A stretch of 64,000 nucleotides of DNA from Mesorhizobium sp. M2A.F.Ca.ET.046.03.2.1 (GTDB taxonomy: Bacteria > Pseudomonadota > Alphaproteobacteria > Rhizobiales > Rhizobiaceae), in the NCBI RefSeq assembly GCF_003952425.1, contig NZ_CP034449.1:2728001-2792000 (forward strand), in the 5' to 3' direction. Below are positions 51,622 through 53,710 of the stretch, piece after piece. A program made the position numbers and the translations under genes. The notes under the pieces were generated by a model. That model worked only from the letters and a program-made list of their open reading frames with translations. It was not told where the DNA came from and did not search any database. How positions within the stretch are numbered: position 1 is the stretch's first letter; the number at the start of each line of letters is the position of its first letter.

Positions 51622-52713
51622 TTATGCCGCGCCCTGGCGGCTGGCGAGCAACTCGCGCTTCACGGACCGGCGCCATTCGACGGCGCCGGCAAGGCCGTGA
51701 AGCACGGTCTCGGTGGTCGCCCAGTCGATGCAGCCGTCGGTGATGCTCTGGCCGTAGGTAAGCGGCTTGCCGGGCACGACGTCCTGGCGGCCGGCGACGA
51801 GATTGCTCTCGATCATGACGCCGATGATGCGCTCGTCGCCGGCTGCGACCTGACCGGCAACGTCATGCGCCACCTTCGGCTGGTTCTCCGGCTTCTTGGC
51901 GCTGTTGGCGTGGCTGACATCGATCATCAGCCGCGGAGCGATGCCGATGCGGCCGAGCTCGGCGGCGGCGGCATCGACGCTTGCGGCATCGTAGTTCGGC
52001 TGAATGCCGCCGCGCAGGATCACATGGCAATCCTCATTGCCCGTGGTGGCCGCGATCGCACTGCGGCCGCCCTTGGTCACCGCCATGAAATGATGCGGCT
52101 GGGCTGCCGACTTCACCGCTTCGCCGGCGATCCTGAGATTGCCGTCGGTGCCATTCTTGAAGCCAACCGGGCAGGAGAGGCCCGATGCCAGCTCGCGATG
52201 GATCTGGCTTTCGGTCGTGCGCGCGCCGATGGCGCCCCAGGCGACGAGGTCGGCGATGTATTGTGGGATGGTCATGTCGAGGAACTCGGTCGCCGCCGGC
52301 AGGCCGAGATTGTTGACGGCCGACAGCACGTTGCGCGCCATGCGCAAGCCCTTCTCGATGTTGAAGCTGCCGTCGAGATCGGGATCGTTGATCAGCCCCT
52401 TCCAGCCGAGCGTGGTGCGCGGCTTCTCGAAATAGACGCGCATGACGATCTCGAGCCGGTCGGCCAGGGTCTCGCGCAGCGCCGCCAGACGGCTGGCATA
52501 GTCAACGGCCGCGACCGGATCGTGGATGGAACAAGGGCCGACGATGACAAGCAGTCGATCGTCGGCCCCGGTCAGGATCGAATGAATGGTGTTGCGCGAG
52601 GCGGCAACGGTGCGCGTCGCGGTGAGCGAGCGCGGTATCTCGCGCATCACCTCGTCCGGCGTGCTCAAGGCTCTGATTTCGGTGACCCGAAGGTCGTCTG
52701 TGGTGGTCAACAC
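51622..52713 (-). CDS. aroG: 3-deoxy-7-phosphoheptulonate (DAHP) synthase, class I
   Basis: 363 residues. Class I (AroFGH-type) DAHP synthase: VIVGPCSIHDP, RVYFEKPRTTLGWKGLINDP, GARTTESQIHRELASGLSCP, GFKNGTDGN, HVILRGG and MIDVSHANSAK. It joins phosphoenolpyruvate and erythrose 4-phosphate, the first step of aromatic amino-acid synthesis. A leader peptide and terminator 41-177 bases upstream indicate attenuation by aromatic amino acids. aroF would be an equally valid symbol. Confidence 0.92.
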   Translation of the reverse strand: MLTTTDDLRVTEIRALSTPDEVMREIPRSLTATRTVAASRNTIHSILTGADDRLLVIVGPCSIHDPVAAVDYASRLAALRETLADRLEIVMRVYFEKPRTTLGWKGLINDPDLDGSFNIEKGLRMARNVLSAVNNLGLPAATEFLDMTIPQYIADLVAWGAIGARTTESQIHRELASGLSCPVGFKNGTDGNLRIAGEAVKSAAQPHHFMAVTKGGRSAIAATTGNEDCHVILRGGIQPNYDAASVDAAAAELGRIGIAPRLMIDVSHANSAKKPENQPKVAHDVAGQVAAGDERIIGVMIESNLVAGRQDVVPGKPLTYGQSITDGCIDWATTETVLHGLAGAVEWRRSVKRELLASRQGAA

Positions 52714-52754
52714 GGCTTTCTGCTCCTGATTTAGGAGACCTGCCGGCTTGAAAC

Positions 52755-52778
52755 AAAAAAGCCGCCAGGTCTGGCGGC
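52755..52778 (-). terminator. Attenuator terminator upstream of aroG
   Basis: On the minus strand GCCGCCAG (52768-52761 complement of CTGGCGGC at 52771-52778) forms an 8-bp GC stem with a two-base loop, followed by TTTTTT and GTTT. It lies 42 bases before the aroG start, so as a terminator it would stop transcription ahead of the gene unless the stem is prevented from forming. Confidence 0.87.
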
Positions 52779-52803
52779 TTGTCGGATTTTGATCTGGAGT
52801 TTT

Positions 52804-52890
52804 TCAGATCGAGCGCAATCCTCCCGCCGCCAGCGAGCTACCGTAGCTAAAGTACCAAAACGAGGCGGTCAGGTGGATCATGCGGCTCAT
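52804..52890 (-). CDS. Aromatic leader peptide of the aroG attenuator
   Basis: A 28-codon frame from the ATG at 52890 reads MSRMIHLTASFWYFSYGSSL and ends AAGGLRSI. Six of codons 11-16 except one are aromatic: Phe-Trp-Tyr-Phe-Ser-Tyr. A second in-frame ATG at 52881 could also start it. No strong ribosome site is visible. Just after the aromatic codons the transcript has CTGGCGGC (52833-52826), identical to the 3' arm of the terminator and complementary to its 5' arm, which is the antiterminator segment of a classical ribosome-mediated attenuator. Confidence 0.82.
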   Translation of the reverse strand: MSRMIHLTASFWYFSYGSSLAAGGLRSI

Positions 52891-52915
52891 ATAGTCGATG
52901 CGAGGGCGGTTGTCA

Positions 52916-53710
52916 CTACTCCCCAATCACGCCGGCTATGTTCTGATCATAATCGACGAGGGAGCCGGTCATGACGCCGGCCTGAGGGCTCAGCATATAG
53001 GTGATCAGCCGGGCTAGCTGCGCCGGCTTGACCAGCTGGCCCATCGGCTGCGCTGCCTCTGCCTTCTCCAGCCAGTCATCCGACGCTCCGTGCCATTTCT
53101 TCTGCACGATCGCCTCGCCCTCGGTGTCCATCCATCCCGGCAGCACGGCGTTGCAGCGGATGCGGTTCTTCCGGTAGGCGCTGGCGACATTCTTGGTCAG
53201 CGTCATCAGCGCACCTTTGCTGGTCGAATAGGGCGTGAGGAAGGACTGGCCGGCATGCGCCGACATCGACAGCACGTTGACGATCGAGCCGGGCGCCTTG
53301 CGCTCCAGCAGATGCGCGACAAGGCCCTGCATCAGGAAGAAGGGGCCGCGGACATTGGTGTCGAAGATCTGGTTGAAGAGTTCTTCGGTGGTCTCCACTA
53401 ACGACCCCCGCGCGGACGTGGCGGCGGCGTTGACCAGCGCGTTCAAGGTTCCGAAATGCTCAAGCGCCGTCGCGACCGCGCGCTTGCAGTCGGCGACCTT
53501 GGCGACATCGGCGCTGATGAAGATGGCGTCGACGCCGTTTTTCTTCAGCACTGCCACCGCCTTGTCGCCCTTTTCCTGCGAGCGGCCGATCAGCGCGAGC
53601 GCGCGGCAGCCCTCGTCTGCAAGCGCTTCCGCGACGGCGAAGCCGATGCCCTGCGCGCCGCCGGTGACGATGGCGCGTGTTTCTGAATTGCGACCGGCCA
53701 AACCGCTCAT
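52916..53710 (-). CDS. SDR-family oxidoreductase next to inositol dehydrogenase
   Basis: 264 residues. NAD(P) motif TGGAQGIG (16-23), NAAA (94-97) in place of NNAG, catalytic Ser148, Tyr161 and Lys165. Such SDR genes accompany iolG and inositol ABC genes in rhizobia and may act on an inositol isomer or keto-cyclitol. It ends 25 bases before the aroG leader start, so the aroG promoter must lie inside this gene or the operons are linked. Confidence 0.83.
   Translation of the reverse strand: MSGLAGRNSETRAIVTGGAQGIGFAVAEALADEGCRALALIGRSQEKGDKAVAVLKKNGVDAIFISADVAKVADCKRAVATALEHFGTLNALVNAAATSARGSLVETTEELFNQIFDTNVRGPFFLMQGLVAHLLERKAPGSIVNVLSMSAHAGQSFLTPYSTSKGALMTLTKNVASAYRKNRIRCNAVLPGWMDTEGEAIVQKKWHGASDDWLEKAEAAQPMGQLVKPAQLARLITYMLSPQAGVMTGSLVDYDQNIAGVIGE

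Follow-up and report, generated by a model that had tools for sequence, protein, structure and literature searches.

A conserved attenuator of known mechanism lies upstream of aroG in Mesorhizobium sp. M2A.F.Ca.ET.046.03.2.1, as established by its parts, their conservation and a folding switch in silico. The preliminary description of the window (the whole 64,000-nucleotide stretch of DNA analysed) had claimed a complete attenuator layout at this place, and the observation is confirmed, every element having been found on the minus strand. The leader would very probably act as a ribosome-mediated attenuator of the trp type, opening aroG whenever the supply of charged tRNA for Phe, Trp or Tyr becomes limiting. 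We infer a leaderless start, ribosome stalling and a response to each amino acid, and codon content together with folding would predict that all three aromatics are sensed. Whilst the attenuation mechanism itself is known, the three-aromatic specificity is apparently new.

Layout of the aroG leader and its predicted switch

The enzyme encoded by aroG carries out the common initial reaction of aromatic amino acid synthesis. The single-contig genome of 7.37 Mb encodes an AroG that is 91-95% identical to those of its closest named relatives, which belong to Mesorhizobium. The gene downstream of the leader had been taken for a class I DAHP synthase, and rightly so: the family model TIGR00034 (cut-off 173.2 bits) scores the 51622-52713 product at 519.1 bits. 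The genome encodes a class II DAHP synthase as well, at G000:C1:6114239-6115549, and the 500 nt before its domain match contain no open stretch with at least three aromatics in six residues. The elements of the locus, in the direction of transcription, are as follows.

52911..52916, minus strand: putative -35 box GTGACA, into which the stop codon of the upstream SDR gene extends by its final base (sequence, 16-nt spacer)
52889..52894, minus strand: putative -10 box CTATAT, 16 nt from the -35 box
52804..52881, minus strand: leader peptide ORF of 25 codons plus stop, MIHLTASFWYFSYGSSLAAGGLRSI (ORF screen, ATG conservation)
52864..52879, minus strand: segment 1, codons 1-6, partner of segment 2 when the full-length RNA carries no ribosome (minimum free energy fold)
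52843..52860, minus strand: regulatory codons F8 W9 Y10 F11 S12 Y13 (conserved aromatic run, folding)
52826..52833, minus strand: segment 2, CTGGCGGC, leader codons 17-19, antiterminator 5' arm (fold, conservation, covariation)
52817..52821, minus strand: 5' side of the antiterminator extension, GGATT (fold, covariation)
52784..52788, minus strand: 3' side of the antiterminator extension, AATCC (fold, covariation)
52755..52780, minus strand: intrinsic terminator, a 9-bp hairpin at 52780-52759 with arms AAGCCGCCA/TGGCGGCTT, then six T at 52760-52755 (sequence, fold)
52771..52778, minus strand: segment 3, GCCGCCAG, serving the terminator as 5' arm and the antiterminator as 3' arm (fold, covariation)
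52723..52727, minus strand: AGGAG, Shine-Dalgarno-like sequence of aroG (sequence)
51622..52713, minus strand: aroG, class I DAHP synthase with a GTG start, the regulated gene (TIGR00034 aroFGH match)

Several details of the earlier account required revision. The six-codon run with five aromatics (Phe-Trp-Tyr-Phe-Ser-Tyr) is present as claimed, at 52860-52843, and the 28-codon frame assigned to it does exist, although the ATG that opens it (52890-52888) lies partly within the -10 box CTATAT. An upstream ATG of this kind is found in some relatives and absent from others; ATG 52881 falls, in the alignment of 43 alphaproteobacterial (hereafter alpha) leaders, on an ATG present in every one of them. 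For both reasons ATG 52881 is the most likely start of the leader, which then spans 25 codons. The pairing strand CTGGCGGC, previously placed right after the frame, lies instead inside it, at 52833-52826, and the element, which had been ended at 52890, reaches to about 52916 once its promoter is included. Many alpha relatives share a similar -35 box at a similar distance, as well as a spacing comparable to the 7 nt that separate the -10 box from ATG 52881 here. Because so short a distance is left, the aroG leader RNA is probably leaderless, with its 5' end at or beside that ATG.

The switch of the window's own leader was evaluated by folding the RNA with the ribosome-covered part masked, at eight 3' footprint offsets of 9-16 nt. 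With the A-site at F8 or W9, the probability of the antiterminator was 0.88-0.97 at all eight offsets; at Y10 it was 0.88-0.97 at offsets 9-13 and 0.63-0.67 at 14-16, and at F11 or Y13 the outcome varied with the offset assumed. A ribosome at codon 15 onward gave a terminator probability of 0.95. Antiterminator and terminator were thus mutually exclusive in silico, the position of the ribosome deciding between them. The terminator was likewise favoured at equilibrium (0.95) in the ribosome-free full-length RNA, because codons 1-6 then pair with segment 2. This protector hairpin belongs to the window's full-length fold; before the terminator 3' arm is made, the 5' arm is instead paired on the antiterminator side at 0.78, ribosome-free and stalled RNA alike, and the pairing of segments 1 and 2 varies between leaders and is not uniform among relatives. 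In the window folding, a stall at the non-aromatic codons 5-7 would antiterminate too, and specificity must therefore be set by the positions of slow codons and not by the fold.

In the proposed sequence of events, transcription would start at the leader ATG (probably) and the transcript would be translated at once. With Phe, Trp and Tyr ample, the ribosome would clear codons 8-13 and mask segment 2, whereupon segments 3 and 4 would form the terminator and transcription would end near 52755. Should any of the three run short, the ribosome would stall on F8, W9 or Y10 (for F11 and Y13 the outcome depends on the footprint assumed), leaving segment 2 (CTGGCGGC) free to pair with the emerging segment 3 (GCCGCCAG), and the polymerase would then continue into aroG.

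Conservation of the leader, the pairing and the RNA family

Class I aroG is patchily distributed, being found in 59 of 397 genomes of the window's order, Rhizobiales (Hyphomicrobiales), 15 of 385 in the class (a count that includes one weak partial match) and 225 of 398 in the phylum; this patchiness suggests that leader and aroG may have been transferred as a whole unit. A total of 197 loci were collected, of which L197 was dropped as a weak partial AroG match, and the remaining 196 upstream regions (three of them, L040, L055 and L186, with less than 200 nt of sequence) were screened for ORFs that are 10-45 residues long, stop 40-190 nt short of aroG and contain a stretch of six residues of which four or more are F, W or Y. 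An aromatic leader ORF was detected in 142 of the 196 class I aroG upstream regions as against 16 of the 965 dinucleotide shuffles that served as control, five having been made from each of 193 regions, and in 140 of these 142 leaders an intrinsic terminator hairpin with a T-run begins 18-53 nt past the ORF stop. Conservation of the aromatic frame had been named beforehand as a check on the claim, and the frame is conserved: within the order, 57 of the 59 class I aroG loci carry it at the strict threshold, and the other two, with the run RFYSY, both match the RNA model described below. Among the 54 loci failing the ORF screen, 12 match that model at E < 1e-5 (L031, L032, L034, L044, L045, L053, L064, L124, L151, L152, L173 and L187). 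By neither ORF screen nor model at E < 1e-5 was a leader found in 42 of the 196 loci, among them, by label, Enterovibrio, Photobacterium, Methylotenera, Thauera, Azoarcus, Nitrosomonas and Dechloromonas. Loci of the Rhizobium tropici type (L005, L045, L125, L151 and L152) depart from the usual run, having RFYWY or RFYSY and then Arg/Cys/Gln codons, and the antiterminator of L005 is no better than those of its shuffles.

The alternative pairing is largely conserved as well, in a family that also extends outside the class, although not every measure of it exceeds its control. At equilibrium, a ribosome at the first aromatic codon displaced the terminator (P < 0.3) in only 9 of 78 non-redundant leaders, so that elsewhere the switch must be kinetic. 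A co-transcriptional test, in which the RNA is folded before the terminator 3' arm exists, was chosen after the equilibrium test had failed for most leaders. Averaged over the 78 leaders, the 5' arm was paired upstream to a fraction of 0.71 when the ribosome was stalled and of 0.12 when it stood at the stop codon, compared with 0.52 both in ribosome-free RNA and in the shuffled controls. At most 10% of shuffles reached the observed value in 47 of the 78 leaders and more did so in 31, the window's own leader being barely separated from its shuffles (0.10). Beyond the run, the ORF and the terminator 5' arm have an exact match of 5-9 nt, which in most cases is located around TGGCGG or GGCGG, within a few codons past the last aromatic codon.

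Covariation was assessed in 43 alpha leaders out of 45 non-redundant ones, L143 and L188 being left out, against shuffles that leave the relatedness of the leaders in place. The covariation score of the antiterminator was reached by 1 of 500 shuffles and that of the terminator by none of 500, both being above their slid versions. For pairs changed on both sides, shuffles reached the antiterminator value in 45 and the terminator value in 224 of 500; for further pair types, the corresponding counts were 58 and 28 of 500. A covariance model built from these 43 alpha leaders alone matched 52 of 74 further loci at E < 1e-5, the best of these being L021 from Bordetella genomosp. 2 (E 1.3e-20), and 13 of 36 in a second set. 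Of the 52 matched loci, L032 and L045 are alphaproteobacterial by label and L023 is labelled only Proteobacteria; the others lie outside the class by label or kinship. Given that an alpha-only model finds leaders outside the class down to E values of about 1e-20, the aroG leaders inside and outside Alphaproteobacteria form one homologous family.

When 297 genomes of the order were scanned, the model gave 39 matches below 1e-8, each of them situated 33-65 nt upstream of a class I aroG, and among the genomes up to G411 none with a class I aroG lacked such a match; at E values up to 1, matches occur in 143 of the 297 genomes. Nine weaker-match regions below the 39 strong ones were inspected and five proved to be tyrS leaders, whereas three (L214, L216 and L217) contained no aromatic leader resembling that of aroG. 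A search of a plasmid collection with the leader (blastn, distant mode) returned no match.

Amino acids predicted to be sensed and competing explanations

All three of F, W and Y are present in the run of 38 of 44 non-redundant alpha leaders and of 20 of 38 others, the latter labelled beta or gamma with the exception of a few metagenome-assembled genomes with other or vague labels, e.g., L023 and L069. For the alpha set, 21 such leaders would be expected from the codon frequencies of the window, and the maximum in 2000 simulations was 31, a comparison which does not amount to a P value since the leaders are related and not independent. Both synonymous codons are in use for Phe and for Tyr, and it is therefore the coding that is kept. 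The alpha leaders use 78 TTT and 26 TTC codons for Phe, compared with 91 TTT and 439 TTC in 44 window ORFs; this TTT preference possibly reflects slow codons or the avoidance of pairing. The leaders of Rugamonas, Massilia, Janthinobacterium and relatives (L022, L024-L029, L033 and L038) are rich in Phe and Tyr with no Trp in the run, and leaders of the Burkholderia type open with MSAKFYFYFF, often followed by Trp.

It is conceivable, albeit unlikely, that the attenuator is real and that only one or two of the amino acids act on it, e.g., Phe and Tyr, the other codons being weak or inherited. Where an aromatic is missing from the run it is always Trp, which is absent from 6 of the 44 alpha and 18 of the 38 non-alpha leaders; the effect of F11 and Y13 hinges on the footprint assumed, and the aroR leader of Corynebacterium glutamicum, with Phe-Tyr-Phe, reportedly answers to Phe and not to Tyr in the account given in PMC11802643. 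On the other hand, F8, W9 and Y10 all fall within the antiterminating window, and across 43 alpha leaders 32 Trp codons occupy just two adjacent positions.

The terminated leader RNA or its peptide could in addition, or even mainly, act in trans in the manner of Sinorhizobium meliloti rnTrpL and peTrpL, a proposition we consider rather improbable. The architecture is the same, an apparently leaderless small mRNA ended by the attenuator terminator, for which a precedent is described in PMC7298713 and PMC10117765; however, the C-terminal half of the peptide varies, tracking the RNA pairing segment, and no target is indicated. The notion that the hairpin is simply the ordinary terminator of the upstream SDR gene, accompanied by a chance ORF, draws on the fact that this gene ends at 52916 on the same (minus) strand, yet it is contradicted by conservation and hardly credible, given that the leader is retained where the sequence upstream of the promoter differs, that the aromatic codons and their spacing recur outside the class and that shuffles seldom yield a leader. 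A metabolite riboswitch, a T-box or a protein-bound leader in place of a translated attenuator may be dismissed with similar assurance: no supporting point was found for it, no Rfam family reaches its gathering score in the window, and what is conserved is an ORF using both Phe and both Tyr codons, together with two competing pairings.

Related leaders and known systems

Leaders of comparable design precede other genes. Upstream of trpE(G) in the same genome (L218, near 5052434 of G000:C1) lies a trpL-type leader, MNMRSNKTVWWWAR, whose run contains WWW only and which is separated from the gene by a terminator-like hairpin. Sister leaders before tyrS were found in five genomes belonging to a different family of this order (L209, L210, L211, L212 and L213; tyrS identity confirmed with TIGR00234 for four and assigned by resemblance for L213), as full-length but weaker model matches with E values of 4.5e-7 to 1.4e-3. 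These leaders, such as MIKTAATFVYFYYVTSIPAAA, contain FVYFYY or FAYFYY, that is, Phe and Tyr without Trp, and their ATG lies about 180 nt before tyrS with a TTGACA-like box upstream and a strong terminator. When the ribosome was placed on the first Tyr codon, the minimum free energy fold contained the antiterminator in one of the five (L211), the terminator persisting in the other four. In another genome (L215), a weak partial model match, the peptide MTISMNIGNWWWARFARP with NWWWARF precedes an ORF judged by eye to be TrpE-like, and would be a leader of the trpL type. In the own genome, a few aromatic-containing ORFs accompany the PDT (pheA) gene, none with a terminator, and no ORF of 8-40 residues with three aromatics in six was found at two tRNA-synt_1b genes (TyrS/TrpS type). 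The codon run thus fits the target gene, being FWYFSY at aroG, WWW at trpE and Phe/Tyr only at tyrS.

A broader reading, whose prospects we regard as evenly balanced, is that of one ancient or horizontally spread family in alpha-, beta- and gammaproteobacteria, which would constitute an OR-gate for Phe, Tyr and Trp at the class I DAHP synthase, with the run re-tuned by lineage and target (Trp kept or lost at aroG, Tyr and Phe only at tyrS) and a leaderless RNA or peptide that may act in trans.

Where a pathway branches towards three end products, its common first step has to respond to all of them. In E. coli, this step is handled by three isozymes together with the TyrR and TrpR repressors (PMC5343134, as outlined therein), and what is achieved there with three isozymes and two repressors would here be accomplished by one RNA and one peptide. 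The leader offers a prediction of how a key enzyme is regulated in many proteobacteria; it belongs to a family uncaught by Rfam models in the window and 15 related loci, and it is a candidate control point for aromatic production. The natural series of WWW (trpE), FWYF (aroG) and FVYFYY (tyrS) may furthermore serve as material on how attenuators combine several amino acids.

Neither in the window nor in the 15 related loci did any Rfam family attain its gathering score. Phe_leader (RF01859) was considered and rejected, at 24 bits in the window and at best 30.5 among the 15 related loci (L018) against a gathering score of 55. Phe_leader and E. coli pheL carry Phe codons and belong to other genes; the resemblance to the aroG leader, both being a leader peptide plus terminator, is weak. 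E. coli ilvGMEDA is governed by a branched-chain attenuator in which several end products are read by one leader. The BjrC1505 small RNA was likewise rejected, at 17.3 bits in the window against a gathering score of 50 and with no match at E <= 1 in the Bradyrhizobium loci L009, L010, L012 and L014. A Thr_leader match of 33.7 bits, below the gathering score of 55, was noted in a Bradyrhizobium locus (L012:3642-3773).

Among the papers listed by the literature searches, no report was found of this aroG leader family or of a Phe/Trp/Tyr leader, a listing in Vitreschak et al. 2004 or in the Merino attenuator database being possible. One of the closest counterparts, in that it is a leader-peptide attenuator with consecutive aromatic codons before a DAHP synthase gene, is aroR, the leader of aroF in C. 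glutamicum; set against the aroG leader by its description, it differs in being actinobacterial, in its Phe-Tyr-Phe run and in its reported response to Phe only (PMC11802643, PMC4046766). The uORFC-13-1 motif upstream of aroF in Acholeplasma similarly combines a predicted uORF with a terminator before a DAHP synthase gene, although it is presented in PMC8632094 as a candidate, comprising 24 sequences from Acholeplasma and the environment with at least one Phe codon. Attenuation has also been suggested at proteobacterial class I DAHP synthase genes, namely aroF of E. coli and Shewanella, where sensing of Tyr-tRNA was proposed (PMC2659441, PMC8632094), and Vibrio aroF-tyrA, for which putative attenuators at tyrA operons were put forward (PMC1173090); by these descriptions, they involve Tyr-tRNA or a merely putative structure, and no three-aromatic leader is described in them. 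Branched-chain attenuators, e.g., the Caulobacter ilv leader as described in PMC4117421, also answer to several end products per leader, but through branched-chain codons. Within the Alphaproteobacteria, the S. meliloti trpL-trpE(G) attenuator, the source of rnTrpL and peTrpL, is described as having a leaderless leader mRNA and a ribosome-dependent terminator (PMC10117765, PMC7298713). The aroG leader, probably leaderless too, would resemble it in this respect and differs in that consecutive Trp codons precede trpE in the S. meliloti attenuator, whereas a single Trp codon, with aroG downstream, is found in the aroG leader.
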